From: an uncultured Clostridia bacterium
Lineage (GTDB): Bacteria > Bacillota > Clostridia > Christensenellales > UBA3700
DNA: 64,000 nt
Assembly: GCA_947038565.1 (NCBI GenBank)
Contig: CAMQWP010000002.1
Coordinates: 1 to 64,000, forward strand
Reading direction: 5' to 3'
In this document: positions 16,597-53,682 of the stretch, piece by piece
How positions within the stretch are numbered: position 1 is the first letter of the stretch
Layout of the letters: each line of letters starts with the position of its first letter
Notes under the pieces: model-generated
Seen by the model: the letters and a program-made list of their open reading frames with translations, nothing else
Database searches by the model: none
Told to the model about the DNA's origin: nothing
Translations under genes and position numbers: made by a program

Positions 16597-19500
16597 ATGA
16601 TATATGCAATTATTATATTAAGTTTATTACTGATAATTTTCGGTGTACTTGCGATACGACGCGAATATACTTTTCGAATTACAGCCAAACTGCAAACTAG
16701 TGAAATAGAATCAAACGTGGCAAATCTGGCTATTAGTCTACGCAGTCCAAATATGGACGGATCTGCTCCTAGAACCAGAAGTTTACTAGCAAATCTCAAG
16801 AGATCATATAGACATATCTGCAAAAAAGTTGCAAATGATGAAGATTTATACGAGTTTGAAAAATGGTTGTATGAGAATTATTATAAAGTAATAACAAATA
16901 TATCATCGACAAAATACAATTACTTTGCTTTATTACCGAGCGTAAAAGGTAAAGCTAGGGTATTGATAGTTGCCGACTTTTTACTTTCAAGTAATGATAA
17001 TCAACTTACATGTGAACATATTAGCGAAGTAATCGACAATTTCAACCTATATACACCACTAGACAAAGATGAAGTATTTGCATTGACTGATGCAATTGCT
17101 TATACTTGCATTCAGCGAATTACTAATATATGTACAAAATCTAAAAGCTATTCAAGGTCAAAACGTCTTGCATCAATAGAAAATTTTAATAAAAAAGAGC
17201 AGTCTTCTGATGCATATATGTACTGGCGTAGTAGGAATGGTTATTTAGCTGACGATCATAATAAAGCCACTATGTACGATGGCAACTTAGATAATATAGA
17301 ATTCTCATTTACTAAAACTCTAGTAGAAAACTGTAGAGTAATGTCAAAATGCATTAAATCGTTAATATATATCGAAGATAATATAAGTTTAGAATACAAA
17401 ATAGGTCTAAGCTATGCAAGTCAGCTTATGAAAAATGACGATATATATGCAACGATGGATATAGATAGTAGGCTCTCATACCTCAACAGTATTGAGATTA
17501 TTAGTCGCAAGTATAAAATCGAAGAGCAGTCAGTTGTTAAACATGCGATGCAGTTAGCTACCGATAATAATATACATTTTGGATATTATTTCTTTGAGGG
17601 AAGAAGACAACTAAAAACATATATTAAAGATGGAAATAGTGTACCACCAGATCACAAATCAACAAAATTTATACAAAATCTATTTATTACAATGGTATTT
17701 ATGGGGAATATAATTGCATCGGTAGCATTATCTATATTTGGAGCTAGTAGTTTATGGACGTTAATTACTTTCGGTATTGCACTGTTTTTTGCACTACTCC
17801 CACTTACAGAATTTATTATAATATACTTGTTTAGATTATTTTTGATAAATAAACCTACACCAAAACTAAATAATAATACTGTAAATGATGACGCAAAAAC
17901 GCTAGTAGTAATGCCTTGTTTCGTAGGTAGTGATAACGACGCTGAAACAGTAGCAAATGCAATACTAAGAGTACGCGAAAGTAACAATATGAACAACGTA
18001 AATTTTGCTTTACTAGTAGATTACCCAAGCAGTGAAAGTCCAAAACACAAATATTTTGATGACTTTACAGAAACAATTACACAAATTATTGACAAATATA
18101 ATGACATAAATCTATTCATTAGAAAACCTGTGAAATCAGGTAATAAATATATTGCCTTTGAGAAAAAACGTGGTGCATTAATGGATCTTACTGATAGTCT
18201 AATGCGTGATAATTATGATACATTTGAATACATTCATAGAACACATATTGCTTCACCAAAATTTATTGTCACACTTGATAGTGATAATGAATTGCAACCA
18301 GGTAGTATCTTGAGATCTATAAATACTATGCTACATCCTCTAAATAAAAAGTATGATTTAATGACTTTTAATGCAAAATACAACTTATACTCTATGAATA
18401 CGTTATTTTCTAAAAGGTATTATTTTGATAGTGGATATGATAGATATAGCAATACAGATAACTTTTATAACAATCTTATGACAAAAAGTTTATTCAATGG
18501 AAAGGGTATCTTTAGACTCTATGAGTTTTATACTAAGTTATATAATGTACTTCCTTCCGGAAAAATATTAAGTCATGACATATTAGAAGGTTCGTTATTA
18601 AACACAGGAATGCTAAGCGAAATCGTCTATGAGGACGCACCAAACAGTATATATTCAGAAACTTCACGCAAAAATCGATGGTTAAGAGGTGATTTACTAC
18701 TTGGTGGCTTTCTTGGCTCAAAAATAAAGAACGACAATAATGCAGTAACAATTATTAAAAAAGAGAAAGCATATAATCATATAATAGTATCTAATATATT
18801 AAAATCATTTTCACCTATTGCTATGTTATTACTACTAGTGATACCACTACTTTACAAATCATTTATGATGGCTATTCCGTTTATTATTGCATTTGGACTT
18901 GATTATATTATAAGAATATTTAATGCGCTGGCGGGTACAGTAAATGGAACACGAACTAGATACGTTGCAAGATGCATAATTAGTATATTGATAGAATCAT
19001 TTATTAATCTATTAATACTACCATTTTATGCAATAAATAATATTGTAATAATTAGTCAGCTTATATTCACTGCTATATTTACACCTGATAAAAAACTTGA
19101 TTGGAAGCCATTCTCAAGCTCGCAGCATGGAACTTCTCTTATAAATTATTTTATATTGATACTACCTTCAGTTATTTTCGCGACTATTATGTCAGCAGTT
19201 TTCTATGCAAACCCTTTTATGCTAGGCTACTTTGCTATATATGTTGCAGTGATCATATCCCTTTATATTACAGGAACTGAAATTGATAAAAAACAATTTA
19301 TCAAACTTTGCGACCAACAGTTTTTATTAGAAATTGCAAAAAAGACTTATAAATTTTTTGAAGAATGCAGTATTAATGATCTTGTTGTAGATAATTATCA
19401 AACCAAGCCATATAAAGGCAACGCGATATCTACTTCTCCTACTAATATTGGATTTTCATTACTTGCCGAAGTTTCAGCTTACGAATTAGGTATAATAAGC

Positions 19501-22500
19501 ATAGAAAGTGCAAACAGAAAAATTGCATCAAAGTTAATTGCCGTAAATAGGCTTCGAAAATATCGCGGTCATCTGTACAATTGGTATAATATAGAAACAA
19601 AACAGATACTGAGTCCAAACGTAATATCCTCAGTTGATAGTGGTAATTTCTTAGCATCGCTAATCACATTGAAACAGTTTATGTTAAGACATAAACTTGA
19701 CAATATTGATATTGTTGAGAATCTAATAGCAAACACTGACCTTGATTTTATGTACGATAATTATCAACAAAAGTTTTTCATATCATATAATACCGGGGAA
19801 AAATTATATAACGGACACTATGATATATTAGCAAGCGAATCAAGAATTTTGTATTATATTTATACCTCAATATCGCATAATACTGCGGCATGGCTAACTC
19901 TTAAAAGACAAACTAGCAACCTAAAAGGTAATACCTTGATGTCATGGTCAGGCACAATGTTTGAGTATTTAATGCCAAGGATATTTATGACACCACCTAA
20001 AAACTCACTTCTTGAAGATACCGAAAAAAATATTATCAGTATATCTAAAGGGCATAAATGCAAAGGGTTATTCGGTATATCAGAGTCAGGATATTATCAG
20101 TTTGACAACAATTTAAAATATCAATATCATGCATTTGGTCTAAACGAGATATCAATTAGGAATTCAAGAAATTCATGTGTAATATCGCCATATTCTTCTT
20201 TTCTATGCCTACAAATTAATGCTAATAAGGTAATAGAGAACATAAGAACTCTTAAAACTGAAGACATGGTAGGGGAATACGGTTATTATGAAGCAGTTGA
20301 TTTTACAACACAGAAAAATATAGTTTACTCTTATATGTCACATCATCAAGGAATGATAATAACTAGTATTGCTAATTCACTTAGAGATAATTGCATATCG
20401 AAGCACTTTGAGTGTGACAGTAAGATGCAAGGGGGTAGACTTTTACTTGGAGAGAGAAGAATTTTTACAAAATCTCACAAAATAGCAAAAACTGATTTTG
20501 CGTATAATAAAAATGATCATGAGGACCTTATAACTGATGATGCTTGCTCAACTGGTATTCTAACTAATGGAGCATACACTTATATATCAAAAAGCACAGG
20601 ACAAAATGTGAGTATTGTCAATGGGAATGCTATAGCAAAAATGCGTAATTATGATAAAAGATCTGGACTTATTAACTATGTTCAAAATAACGGGGCTAGT
20701 CTATCACATTCATATAGAAGGTGTGACAATAATACGGTATGTGAAAAATTTACACATTTGTTCAAGGATACAATGTTGGAGTACACAAATACTGGTGCAA
20801 ACATAAGTGAAGAAGTATATATTCCCAATTGTATAAAGGGCGAAGTTCACAAATTTACAATAAATAAAACTATAAACGATATGACAAATATAAATTGCGT
20901 TGGATACATGGATATAAGTATTAGTCCGTTTATGGACGAAATATCACATACTGCTTTTTCGGATATGTTTATTAGTAGCGAAAAAATAAATGAAAATACT
21001 GTATTATTTCACCGAAAGTCTCGAGATAATGGCGGGGACAAATTCGTAGGCATTAAAATAATTGGTTTGCAGAATATAGTATTTGAAACTAATAAGCAAC
21101 ACAGTATAGATATCAATAGCAAAGAAATAATATGGAATGATAACGAATTTGATGATTCATTTGGTGATGTTGTGACGCCGTGTTTTAGCTATAATAGCAA
21201 GTGTAGCAATGAAGAAATGTCTACTATGAACTATTATATAGTAATAGTATACAGTGAAAGCAAAAGTGAGATAATATCAGAGCTTAGTCTTATCGAAAGC
21301 ACAAACTCGATTGATTATCTAATAGAATCGGCAAAAGTAAAATCAATTTCTAAGGTTAATAAGCTATTTGATAAAAACGCAGATTATAAAATGGCATTGA
21401 AACTCGCTGACATAATAATATCAGCTAATTATACAGATTCAGCACTTATGGAAATGAATCAAATTGACTATAATAATCTTATGAATGAAGTTAATGCAGG
21501 ATCGGACTGTAAAATAATATACTATAGTTATCAATGCAACCCTAATTTATTAGTTTCGTTATCAAAAGCAATTGAATTTATAAAAGACATACCAATGTCA
21601 CATAAACTAATTATATATATTGATGATAGAAATAAAAATCATGATGTGATAAAGAATAAAGTATATAGTGCATTCGATGGTAATATTGGCCAATACCTGA
21701 TTATCAGTAATTACGAATTATCTAAGCGAATAGAGGCAATTTCTTTATATAACATCTCCAGTAAAGAATTATTCACGGCAAAATCCATTACCCAACCTGA
21801 AAATACAATTATTGACAGTTCGGACATGGTAGAAAAAAGTGATATATTGTTTAAAGTGAAAGATGGCGGTTTTACAAGTGACTCATATTTAATTGAAAAT
21901 CGGACAATCAAACCATATTCAAATGTAATTTGTGGCATGTTCGGCGGTACTGTAGTCACTACAAATGGTGGCGGTTTCACATATTTTGGGAATAGTCGTA
22001 ATGATAAAGTAAGTATGTGGAGCAATAATCAATTAGAAGATGAATGTAGTGAAAAGATAATGTTATCATTAGATAATATGTCTTGGCGATTAAATAAGCT
22101 ATATCAAAATGCGAGTTGCGAGCATAAAATAGGCTCTACGTCATTTGACTGTCAAAATCTAAATATTAAAAGTTCTGTAACAGAGTGCATGCTATATGAT
22201 GGAAAATGCAAACTATTTGAAGTATCACTAGAAAATACTTGTGCTGACAATCTAATATTTGAATTGTCTCTAGATATGACTTATGCGCTAGGCGTCAACT
22301 ATGAGAGTGCGGGTTTGCTAGCATCAAACAAGAATAACGAAACTATTACTGTCGCAAATGTATATACTAAACAATGCGTATATCAAAGATTTATCGGGTA
22401 TTCAAGTAAGTATAGAAGAAATAAAAAGGGTGTAGAGAACTATATTGAATTAACATTGCCTGCAATGCAAAAACTAAAGATAAATTGTATAATAAGTAAT

Positions 22501-24021
22501 GACTTATCCGCATTGATGAGCTTGAATCAAGGCAATATAATAAAAGAAAAAAACACAATGATAGAATATTTTAATGATTTAAACAAAATCAATGTGCATA
22601 CTGATGATAAATCATTTGATGTATTATTTAATAAATCACTTATGTATCAAACCGTATCAGCAAGATTAAATGGAAAATGTGGCTTTTACCAAGTTGGAGG
22701 AGCTATCGGCTTTAGAGATCAGTTGCAAGATTGTCTTGCTTTTATATATAGCGATCCTGATTATGTTCGAAATCACATTATTCAAAGTGCTAAGCGCCAA
22801 TTTGTAGATGGCGATGTGCTGCATTGGTGGCACAATCCTAATGTCGGTGTAAGGACTAGGATAAGTGATGATAAATTATTTTTACCTTATGTTGTATCAG
22901 AGTATATTAGAATAACTGGAGATAGAAGTATTTTAAAGGAAAATGCTAGTTATTTAACTGGACGACATTTAGAGCCTGGGGTCCATGATATGTATATGTC
23001 ATATAATGATGGTGAAGTAATAGAAGATATAAAATCACACTGCATTAGAGCGATAAATAACTCGCTAAAATATGGCGAACATGATATATTATTAATCGGA
23101 TCAGGGGACTGGAATGATGCACTGAATAATATTGGTGATGAAGAACGGGGTGAAAGTGTATGGTTATCAATGTTCTGCTTTCATGTTATTACAAAGTTCA
23201 GCAAGTATACTGATAATGACATAAACGAAAAGTTTAAGCAAGATAAAATAAGGCTTAAGAGAGGAATAAGACAAGCATATCAAAATGGTTGGTATGCTAG
23301 AGCATATACAAAAGATAACGAGTGGTTAGGAACAATTAATACTGAGGTATGTAATATTGACCTCATTTGCCAAAGTTTTGCTGTGATATCTGGTGCATGT
23401 CCAGAAAAAATGGCACATAAAGCAATGGAGAATGCGTCGCAGCTAATTGACACGCAAAAAGGCATTGTAAAACTACTATCGCCACCATTCAATCATAATA
23501 AAAATTATGGATATATATCTCATTATCCATCAGGAGTGCGAGAGAATGGCGGACAGTATACTCATGCTGTAGCTTGGTATATTAAAGCTCTAGCAATGAT
23601 TGATCGTGTTAAAGCCTATGATGTATTACAAATGGTAAATCCTATAAATAAAGCTATCAATAATCCAGAATATAACGTAGAACCGTATGTAATGAGTGCT
23701 GATGTATACACTTCTGGTGCAGGTGGATGGACATGGTATACGGGTAGTAGCTCATGGTTTTATAAAGTGATGATAGAAGATATTATCGGAATAAACTTTG
23801 ATGAAAATATATTAAGAATTAACCCTAAATATATACCAAAACTAGGAGATATAAAAGTCAATATCAAAAGAAATGACATGGAAATAAATATAACAATTAC
23901 AAAATCAAATGATACGAGTATGAGCGTTAATAATATTATAAATTCTCAAACTAATATTTATGAAATAATACTTGATAATGACAAAAAAGACTACGATATC
24001 AAAATAAACTATAAAAACTAA
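16597..24021 (+). CDS. Cyclic beta-1,2-glucan synthase (GT84 + GH94)
   Basis: A single 2474-residue membrane protein. After an N-terminal membrane helix and two hydrophobic segments (about 355-420), a GT84 glycosyltransferase core shows LVVMPCFVGSDNDAETV, the Asp motif PKFIVTLDSDNELQPGS (near 550), HDILEGSLLNTG and the NRWLRGDL signature (near 690). More membrane helices follow (about 720-890), then a glycoamylase-like domain (SPTNIGFSLLAEVSAYELG to about 1300), which does the cyclisation in characterised relatives, then a GH94 phosphorylase-like region with GFRDQLQDCLAF (near 2037) and the catalytic Asp in GSGDWNDALNN (near 2168). Proteobacterial ChvB/NdvB are about 2800 residues; a relative exists in Thermoanaerobacter. 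GAGGTG precedes the ATG. Probable product: periplasmic or secreted cyclic beta-1,2-glucan. Cyclic versus linear product is inferred. Confidence 0.88.
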   Translation: MIYAIIILSLLLIIFGVLAIRREYTFRITAKLQTSEIESNVANLAISLRSPNMDGSAPRTRSLLANLKRSYRHICKKVANDEDLYEFEKWLYENYYKVITNISSTKYNYFALLPSVKGKARVLIVADFLLSSNDNQLTCEHISEVIDNFNLYTPLDKDEVFALTDAIAYTCIQRITNICTKSKSYSRSKRLASIENFNKKEQSSDAYMYWRSRNGYLADDHNKATMYDGNLDNIEFSFTKTLVENCRVMSKCIKSLIYIEDNISLEYKIGLSYASQLMKNDDIYATMDIDSRLSYLNSIEIISRKYKIEEQSVVKHAMQLATDNNIHFGYYFFEGRRQLKTYIKDGNSVPPDHKSTKFIQNLFITMVFMGNIIASVALSIFGASSLWTLITFGIALFFALLPLTEFIIIYLFRLFLINKPTPKLNNNTVNDDAKTLVVMPCFVGSDNDAETVANAILRVRESNNMNNVNFALLVDYPSSESPKHKYFDDFTETITQIIDKYNDINLFIRKPVKSGNKYIAFEKKRGALMDLTDSLMRDNYDTFEYIHRTHIASPKFIVTLDSDNELQPGSILRSINTMLHPLNKKYDLMTFNAKYNLYSMNTLFSKRYYFDSGYDRYSNTDNFYNNLMTKSLFNGKGIFRLYEFYTKLYNVLPSGKILSHDILEGSLLNTGMLSEIVYEDAPNSIYSETSRKNRWLRGDLLLGGFLGSKIKNDNNAVTIIKKEKAYNHIIVSNILKSFSPIAMLLLLVIPLLYKSFMMAIPFIIAFGLDYIIRIFNALAGTVNGTRTRYVARCIISILIESFINLLILPFYAINNIVIISQLIFTAIFTPDKKLDWKPFSSSQHGTSLINYFILILPSVIFATIMSAVFYANPFMLGYFAIYVAVIISLYITGTEIDKKQFIKLCDQQFLLEIAKKTYKFFEECSINDLVVDNYQTKPYKGNAISTSPTNIGFSLLAEVSAYELGIISIESANRKIASKLIAVNRLRKYRGHLYNWYNIETKQILSPNVISSVDSGNFLASLITLKQFMLRHKLDNIDIVENLIANTDLDFMYDNYQQKFFISYNTGEKLYNGHYDILASESRILYYIYTSISHNTAAWLTLKRQTSNLKGNTLMSWSGTMFEYLMPRIFMTPPKNSLLEDTEKNIISISKGHKCKGLFGISESGYYQFDNNLKYQYHAFGLNEISIRNSRNSCVISPYSSFLCLQINANKVIENIRTLKTEDMVGEYGYYEAVDFTTQKNIVYSYMSHHQGMIITSIANSLRDNCISKHFECDSKMQGGRLLLGERRIFTKSHKIAKTDFAYNKNDHEDLITDDACSTGILTNGAYTYISKSTGQNVSIVNGNAIAKMRNYDKRSGLINYVQNNGASLSHSYRRCDNNTVCEKFTHLFKDTMLEYTNTGANISEEVYIPNCIKGEVHKFTINKTINDMTNINCVGYMDISISPFMDEISHTAFSDMFISSEKINENTVLFHRKSRDNGGDKFVGIKIIGLQNIVFETNKQHSIDINSKEIIWNDNEFDDSFGDVVTPCFSYNSKCSNEEMSTMNYYIVIVYSESKSEIISELSLIESTNSIDYLIESAKVKSISKVNKLFDKNADYKMALKLADIIISANYTDSALMEMNQIDYNNLMNEVNAGSDCKIIYYSYQCNPNLLVSLSKAIEFIKDIPMSHKLIIYIDDRNKNHDVIKNKVYSAFDGNIGQYLIISNYELSKRIEAISLYNISSKELFTAKSITQPENTIIDSSDMVEKSDILFKVKDGGFTSDSYLIENRTIKPYSNVICGMFGGTVVTTNGGGFTYFGNSRNDKVSMWSNNQLEDECSEKIMLSLDNMSWRLNKLYQNASCEHKIGSTSFDCQNLNIKSSVTECMLYDGKCKLFEVSLENTCADNLIFELSLDMTYALGVNYESAGLLASNKNNETITVANVYTKQCVYQRFIGYSSKYRRNKKGVENYIELTLPAMQKLKINCIISNDLSALMSLNQGNIIKEKNTMIEYFNDLNKINVHTDDKSFDVLFNKSLMYQTVSARLNGKCGFYQVGGAIGFRDQLQDCLAFIYSDPDYVRNHIIQSAKRQFVDGDVLHWWHNPNVGVRTRISDDKLFLPYVVSEYIRITGDRSILKENASYLTGRHLEPGVHDMYMSYNDGEVIEDIKSHCIRAINNSLKYGEHDILLIGSGDWNDALNNIGDEERGESVWLSMFCFHVITKFSKYTDNDINEKFKQDKIRLKRGIRQAYQNGWYARAYTKDNEWLGTINTEVCNIDLICQSFAVISGACPEKMAHKAMENASQLIDTQKGIVKLLSPPFNHNKNYGYISHYPSGVRENGGQYTHAVAWYIKALAMIDRVKAYDVLQMVNPINKAINNPEYNVEPYVMSADVYTSGAGGWTWYTGSSSWFYKVMIEDIIGINFDENILRINPKYIPKLGDIKVNIKRNDMEINITITKSNDTSMSVNNIINSQTNIYEIILDNDKKDYDIKINYKN

Positions 24022-52526: not shown

Positions 52527-52829
52527 CTATTTTATGCCATTAATTAGAGTTCTCAATCTATTGCTTTGCTCAACCGACATATTTTGCGACATTTGATCAT
52601 AAAAGTTTTCTAATAATTTCGGATTAATATCTCCATTATTTTTACTATTCATTACTTCTTTTTGCAGTTCATTCATAAGTTGATTTTGCGACATTTTATT
52701 ATATTTATCATAGTTTTGATTCACCTGCTTTTCTACATTTTTATCCACATTATTACCAGATTTTTGCTGATTAAATCCACCAATATTATGTCCGTTGTTA
52801 TTACTAAAGTTTTTTATACTTCTACCCAT
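52527..52829 (-). CDS. Asn/Gln-rich small protein, unknown; probable sporulation gene
   Basis: A 100-residue hydrophilic protein. Residues 1-45 are rich in Asn, Gln, Gly and Lys (GRSIKNFSNNNGHNIGGFN). Residues 46-100 look like a compact helical domain (MSQNQLMNELQKEVMNSK, NPKLLENFYDQMSQNMSVEQ, SNRLRTLINGIK). I do not recognise a named family. The ATG follows AGGAGGTAATT. It is divergent from the Met/Asn-rich gene across 67 bases that contain a shared dyad with a SigK-type promoter for each direction, so expression in the mother cell late in sporulation is the best inference. No cysteine, signal peptide or membrane segment. Confidence 0.7.
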   Translation of the reverse strand: MGRSIKNFSNNNGHNIGGFNQQKSGNNVDKNVEKQVNQNYDKYNKMSQNQLMNELQKEVMNSKNNGDINPKLLENFYDQMSQNMSVEQSNRLRTLINGIK

Positions 52830-52847
52830 AATTACCTCCTAATTATT

Positions 52848-52883
52848 CACATTATATTATATGCAGGCATATACTAAAATGTG
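52848..52883. promoter_or_regulatory. 36-bp dyad with two divergent SigK-type promoters
   Basis: CACATTATATTATATGC (52848-52864) and GCATATACTAAAATGTG (52867-52883) are complementary at 15 of 17 positions around AG. In the plus direction AC (52849-52850), 17 bases, CATATACTA (52868-52876); in the minus direction AC (52882-52881), 17 bases, CATATAATA (52863-52855). Both match the mother-cell SigK pattern AC-N16/17-CATANNNTA. Each -10 is followed about ten bases later by AGGAGG and then the start codon. Confidence 0.65.
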
Positions 52884-52896
52884 ATAGGAGGTATAT

Positions 52897-53682
52897 ATGT
52901 TTAATCCAAGTATGTTAATGAATATGATGAATGGTGGTGCTAGCGGAATGCCCAATATGGGAAATATGATGAATGGGGCTAACGGTGGCGCTACCCCAGA
53001 CATGTCAAGCATGATGAATATGTTTAGTGGCGGTGGCATGCCTGGTATGTCTGGAATGCAAAACAACCCTAATTTATCTAATATGACAAATAATTCCGGA
53101 ATGCCCGATATGTCAAGCATGATGAATATGTTTGGCGGTGGAGGCATGCCAAACATGCAAAACATGCCGAATAATTTCAATCAAAATGGAGCTATGCCAG
53201 ATCTATCAAACATGATGAACACTAACGGAGCGAGTTTTGGCAATAATAATATGGCAAATGTTGCTTCAAATGCAAATAATAATAGCAATTTAAATCAAAG
53301 CAACAATAATCAAAACACTAATTTATATAACACAAACTCAAGCAATACAAATAGTGATAATAATCAATATTACAAAAAAGGCTTAGATCAAAATACAGCA
53401 AATATGTATGCAAATTCCCACTATTACCAAGAGAATAATCCAATTCAAGACGAATATAATTCAAACAATAATCAATCTAATTCAAATACGATTCCGAACA
53501 TGTCCGATATAATGAAAAACATGTCTGGTCAAAATAATAGTATACCAAATTTCAATACCAATATGATGAACAACAATATACCTAATTCAAACAATACATC
53601 ATACATAAACCCAAATATAAACAACAATGATACGAATGCAAATATATACAATGCTATGAAAAATAAGAGCAAAATATATTGA
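52897..53682 (+). CDS. Met/Asn/Gly-rich repeat protein, candidate spore coat protein
   Basis: A 261-residue low-complexity protein. The first third is built from Met/Asn/Gly repeats: PDMSSMMNMF at residues 34-43 and again at 70-79, PDLSNMMN at 101-108 and IPNMSDIMKNMSG near 200. The rest is dominated by Asn, Ser and Gln with scattered Tyr (NNQYYKKGLDQN, NSHYYQEN). No signal peptide, cysteine or membrane segment. The ATG follows ATAGGAGGTATAT. Opposite the 100-residue Asn-rich gene and driven from the same dyad with SigK-like boxes. Composition plus promoter suggest a structural spore-surface protein; this is inference, as I recognise no family. Confidence 0.7.
   Translation: MFNPSMLMNMMNGGASGMPNMGNMMNGANGGATPDMSSMMNMFSGGGMPGMSGMQNNPNLSNMTNNSGMPDMSSMMNMFGGGGMPNMQNMPNNFNQNGAMPDLSNMMNTNGASFGNNNMANVASNANNNSNLNQSNNNQNTNLYNTNSSNTNSDNNQYYKKGLDQNTANMYANSHYYQENNPIQDEYNSNNNQSNSNTIPNMSDIMKNMSGQNNSIPNFNTNMMNNNIPNSNNTSYINPNINNNDTNANIYNAMKNKSKIY

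Follow-up and report, generated by a model that had tools for sequence, protein, structure and literature searches.

A divergent gene pair with a CotL-type helical domain and an Asn/Met-rich partner as a candidate spore-coat module in Clostridia

Two unannotated genes, P1 and P2, stand back to back in the genome of an uncultured gut bacterium of the Clostridia, 67 bp apart, and raise the question of what a small protein with an Asn-rich tail and a Met/Asn-rich repeat protein may be doing together. The DNA analyzed here is a stretch of 64,000 nucleotides (the window), for which a preliminary description had placed an Asn/Met-rich gene pair at 52527-53682 and had taken it for a new spore-surface module assembled in the mother cell. 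Both open reading frames are found there (Table 1). We consider it probable, at roughly 70%, that the two genes form a coat-assembly module of the mother cell, expressed late in sporulation, with P1 as a morphogenetic adaptor and P2 as a disordered, self-associating coat component.

Table 1 Features of the P1/P2 locus, in window coordinates
Feature	Position	Strand	Basis
P1, 100 aa	52527..52829	-	ORF; Asn-rich N-terminal tail and CotL-type helical domain; homologues throughout family and order; profile homology to CotL domain
P1 CotL-type helical domain, residues 30-100	52530..52742	-	conserved block in alignments A2 and A4; four predicted helices
P1 ribosome-binding site AGGAGGT	52834..52840	-	sequence
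SigK-type promoter of P1, CACA-N16-CATATAATA	52855..52883	-	exact consensus match; conserved in relatives; overlaps P2 promoter
SigK-type promoter of P2, CACA-N16-CATATACTA	52848..52876	+	exact consensus match; conserved in relatives
P2 ribosome-binding site AGGAGGT	52886..52892	+	sequence
P2, 261 aa, Asn/Met/Ser/Gly-rich	52897..53682	+	ORF; both ends align with the congener's 95-aa partner
Degenerate GMPDMSSMMNMFGGGG-type repeats in P2	52941..53219	+	five copies, 33-nt unit

The two proteins and their promoters

A strong AGGAGGT-type ribosome-binding site precedes each of the two start codons. P1 is Asn-rich in its N-terminal half, where the structure model has low confidence; residues 30-99 are predicted, with modest confidence (pLDDT ~73), to form four helices (30-45, 48-65, 70-80 and 86-99); the helical domain, initially put at 55 residues, is on this model closer to 65-70 residues. 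P2 consists of 29.9% Asn, 13.8% Met, 10.7% Ser and 8.4% Gly, and its first 110 residues hold about five degenerate copies of a GMPDMSSMMNMFGGGG-like repeat, the remainder being Asn-rich. A 107-aa ORF antisense to P2 was dismissed as a shadow frame. Pfam and NCBIfam searches with P1, P2 and the domain alignment returned chance-level matches only, and no model covers the P1 domain. A PDB sequence search with both proteins and the domain alignment stayed at chance level as well (EF-hand-type matches with E 0.005 were disregarded), and a Foldseek search with the P1 model gave nothing significant in the PDB.

The 67-bp gap contains, on each strand, an exact match to [AC]AC[AC]-N16-CATANNNTA, the two matches overlapping back to back and facing outward. 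The pattern is the established consensus of SigK promoters. Strict matches with a spacer of 16-17 number three in the whole 64 kb, both strands included, and the expected number is 0.0034 per 68 bp per strand. A SigE-type promoter was discarded as a candidate, there being no SigE-type match in the gap of the window, while the SigK matches are exact. Boxes of this type are kept near the start codons in relatives: at 18 of 29 loci from the window's family, some of which come from closely related species and are not fully independent, a slightly looser SigK box lies within 70 nt of the start of P1 or P2, compared with none of 43 control genes, all of them longer genes from the same loci (p = 8e-10). 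In P2-P1 operons the box precedes P2, and in divergent pairs it often occurs on both strands. What had been described as SigK-like boxes are hence exact consensus matches, one per strand of the gap. The window's genome encodes SigE, SigG, SigK, SpoIIID, SpoIVA and Spo0A. Elsewhere in the window, the segment 314-4608 (+) carries a STAS/ATPase/sigma trio like spoIIAA-spoIIAB-sigF, SpoVAC/SpoVAE-like and SpoVAD genes, and a YunB-family gene.

P2 is unusually long for its position. At the loci read in the window's family, the small Met-rich neighbor of P1 comprises 62-95 aa; its core is hydrophobic, of the LLPxLMN type, and there is a short motif at the C-terminus. At both ends P2 can be aligned with a congener's 95-aa partner (score 62.5, against at most 37 for shuffled sequences), its extra length lying in the middle, and the alignment identifies the P2 of the window as a lineage-specific, low-complexity expansion of a partner usually 62-95 aa long. 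Elsewhere in the order, other families also have a Met/Asn/Gly-rich neighbor of P1, sometimes in expanded form (134-234 aa). The repetitive character of P2, and the variation in partner length across relatives (62 to 261 aa), would also be expected of a slippage-driven low-complexity frame of little function, in which case P1 alone would matter. We regard this as most improbable, since both ends of P2 are conserved with the congener, P2 possesses its own ribosome-binding site and a conserved SigK box, the partner stays beside P1 through changes of gene order and in other families of the order, and the 33-nt repeats are degenerate (the other copies are 64-79% identical to the reference copy at the DNA level) and form no fresh slippage array.

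Gene neighborhood and co-occurrence with sporulation

P1 and P2 genes are adjacent in three arrangements, i.e., divergent, P2-P1 and P1-P2, and their association thus outlives rearrangement. The neighbors of P1 in the window and in the sequenced congener are an SMC gene and a zinc-ribbon gene. Across families, genes for a class-V aminotransferase and a Se/S-carrier-like protein (PF11823) recur near P1 (L126:2071-3243, L127:9534-9806 and many loci of the order). In several families of Clostridia P1 adjoins a gene for a subtilase-family S8 peptidase (PF00082; L126:4856-6109 (-), L127:6130-7365 (+), L051:1743-2885 (+)), and a link of P1 to germination-type proteases is possible on the strength of these neighbors. 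In some families, a gene adjoining that of the P1 partner (L129:7764-7946 (-), L131:5795-5977 (-), L124:1910-2080 (+)) codes for a strongly hydrophobic protein of 56-60 aa (..LLWDVxFEINHLLFFFIFLVL), one copy of which gave no match in a Pfam search. At a distance from the pair, window positions 16597-24021 (+) encode an ORF of 2474 aa that combines glycoside hydrolase 94 with glucoamylase-like domains and resembles cyclic glucan synthases.

The recurrence of the aminotransferase and carrier-like genes beside P1 in several families could mean that P1 is a sporulation protein of the mother-cell cytoplasm, for example a chaperone or adaptor that serves these neighboring enzymes, with P2 as its disordered substrate and neither protein at the spore surface. 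This appears quite unlikely, however, as the window and the sequenced congener have the SMC and zinc-ribbon genes in place of those enzymes, and the neighbor in C. difficile is CdeC, an exosporium morphogenetic protein.

By single-sequence search, P1 is present in 37 of the 46 genomes of the window's family. Among the family genomes with SpoIVA that were checked by profile, one alone has no confident P1 match, and this assembly is 70% complete. Metagenome-assembled genomes of the family and its near relatives bear names such as 'uncultured Christensenellaceae bacterium' and 'Christensenella sp.'; the scan of named genomes used an alignment narrower than the full A2. At the level of the order, the domain profile A4 matches 233 of 297 genomes, and an earlier P1 profile reaches further families of the class. 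SpoIVA is found in 254 of the 297 genomes, 222 of which also have P1; 11 genomes have P1 only, 32 SpoIVA only and 32 neither. SpoIIID is present in nine of the 11 genomes with P1 but without SpoIVA, and the likeliest reading of these nine is that they are sporulators with incomplete assemblies; SpoIIID is missing from all ten genomes tested that lack both P1 and SpoIVA. When a sporulator is defined as a genome with SpoIVA or SpoIIID, P1 occurs in 231 of 263 sporulators and in 2 of 34 non-sporulators of the order, counts that are not phylogenetically independent. One of the two exceptions is a marginal match (E 0.02), and the other is an apparent non-sporulator with a strong match (G609). P1 co-occurs with spore genes, and its presence in non-sporulating relatives, named in the preliminary description as the observation that would speak against a spore-surface role, is confined to these two genomes.

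Loss of P1 together with sporulation recurs in separate lineages, namely in genus g6 of the window's family f1 and in families f3, f91 and f100. Within g6, Spo0A, SpoIVA and P1 are all missing from four genomes (three 81-86% complete, the fourth 98%) and all present in one. P1 is not universal among sporulators, because the SpoIVA-positive families f6 and f101, which account for 23 of the 32 sporulators without P1, have no detectable P1; either it was lost or replaced there, or it is too divergent for the profile.

Homology with the CotL domain and the proposed role

The order-level P1 profile (A2, built without CotL) aligns with the CotL-type profile (A8) in hhalign with a score of 45 and P 1.2e-7, compared with scores of at most 20 for 60 column-shuffled profiles and of 10 for the reversed profile. 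The same order-level profile matches that of other Clostridia with P 6e-16, and the latter matches CotL with P 1.2e-8. Profile comparison thus identifies the helical domain of P1 as homologous to the CotL domain. Among the distant members of the P1 family in the class is a Lys-tailed protein, and the divergent neighbor of its gene is followed by cdeC. The C. difficile genome was recognized by gene order and by a published CdeC peptide (PMC3738446) that two close sister genomes carry as well. Its gene between LacI and CD1066, next to CdeC, encodes 146 aa if read from the upstream ATG, and the published length of CD1065 is 146 aa (PMC6232153); CD1065 is CotL (PMC11460543).

In C. difficile, CotL is a morphogenetic protein of the coat that the mother cell produces under SigE and SigK control, and loss of CotL depletes coat and exosporium (PMC9542656, PMC8265636); spores without CotL also contain less CspB, CspC and SleC (PMC8265636). 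It has been described as specific to Peptostreptococcaceae (PMC9542656, PMC8265636, PMC9610443). The initial statement that neither protein matches a known family stands insofar as no significant Pfam or NCBIfam match exists, but P1 is no orphan, its domain being common to CotL and an unannotated family found throughout Clostridia. With this homology and a Clostridia-wide distribution of the module, the pair can no longer be called unknown in kind, nor the module new. The suggestion of a spore-surface role with assembly in the mother cell gains support from the exact, conserved SigK boxes, the co-loss with sporulation and the homology with the CotL domain.

As a coat-assembly module, the pair would be transcribed by SigK RNA polymerase from the overlapping, back-to-back promoters, and the shared SigK timing would let the mother cell make P1 and P2 at the same time after engulfment. 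The helical domain of P1 may then dock on earlier coat layers or hold later ones, and its Asn/Ser-rich tail would interact with P2. P2, which is presumably intrinsically disordered and is rich in Asn, Met and Gly, would self-associate, perhaps into a gel, and thereby help to make up the outer coat, the crust or the exosporium as a structural protein. The model predicts that SigK drives expression of both genes, that the two proteins reside in the spore and make contact with each other, and that P2 self-assembles.

Coat morphogenesis in Clostridia is poorly understood, and a 2022 review counts only seven morphogenetic proteins for C. difficile (PMC9542656, PMC8265636, PMC9610443). With a CotL-type domain in P1, the coat machinery looks far older and more widely spread than thought. 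The chances appear evenly balanced that a CotL-domain protein and a low-complexity partner constitute an ancient, Clostridia-wide coat-assembly unit absent from family databases, that the restriction of CotL to Peptostreptococcaceae is an artefact of sequence divergence, and that the partner in its disordered, Met/Asn-rich form is a coat material that self-associates and has arisen more than once by expansion. If the CotL domain spans many families of Clostridia and tracks sporulation across losses that occurred independently, it becomes a candidate for a general morphogenetic factor; the position-conserved partners would then be the obvious next proteins for study, and the domain could be used to mark the capacity for spore formation in uncultured gut bacteria.

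Comparison with GerG, CD1066 and CotL

GerG (CD0311) is a mother-cell spore protein under SigE control, reported only in C. difficile, that gels in vitro through Asn-rich repeats, and these repeats are dispensable for its function (PMC5241399). Its composition (28.2% Asn, 14.8% Met) is nearly equal to that of P2, and the two share repeats of the Met-Pro-Asn type. As a homologue of P2, however, GerG was rejected, the local score of 192 lying inside the range of shuffled GerG (median 170, maximum 213); furthermore, gerG is not beside a P1-type gene, and its control by SigE sets it apart. Judged by sequence, GerG is an analogue of P2 and not a relative. Because the gelling repeats of GerG are dispensable for function, a structural role of the low-complexity part of P2 is not assured.

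The likeness to GerG also bears on whether the pair, instead of building coat, acts in germination control and retains or localizes germination proteases and receptors in the spore. The composition of P2, the reduced amounts of CspB, CspC and SleC in CotL-less spores (PMC8265636) and the S8 peptidase genes adjoining P1 in many Clostridia would fit such a role, which we nevertheless consider unlikely: no S8 peptidase gene lies beside the pair at the examined loci of the window's family, homology between P2 and GerG is undetectable against the shuffled maximum, and what is reported for spores without CotL is primarily a defect in coat assembly.

The coat-assembly reading finds its closest known counterpart in CotL and its neighbor CD1066. 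CD1066 occupies the same position relative to the CotL-domain gene as P2 and the other partners, and resembles some order-level partners by eye in a hydrophobic N-terminus followed by an NGN motif. In contrast to P2, it has 296-305 aa and an acidic C-terminus and is not Met/Asn-rich; the likeness to P2 that can be stated is one of position.

P1 and CotL, finally, are both small proteins with a homologous helical domain, and the gene of each is divergent from an unannotated partner (CD1066 for CotL). CotL is controlled by SigE and SigK, and P1 has a putative promoter that matches the SigK consensus and is conserved in relatives. The genomic settings differ, with cotL beside CD1066 and cdeC and P1 between smc and the zinc-ribbon gene; neither cdeC nor CD1063-type small genes adjoin P1 at the window locus. 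The proteins differ in their tails, in that CotL has a lysine-rich C-terminal tail, whereas P1 ends with the domain (..LINGIK) and carries its Asn-rich tail at the N-terminus. We accordingly class P1 as a protein with a CotL domain rather than as CotL itself.
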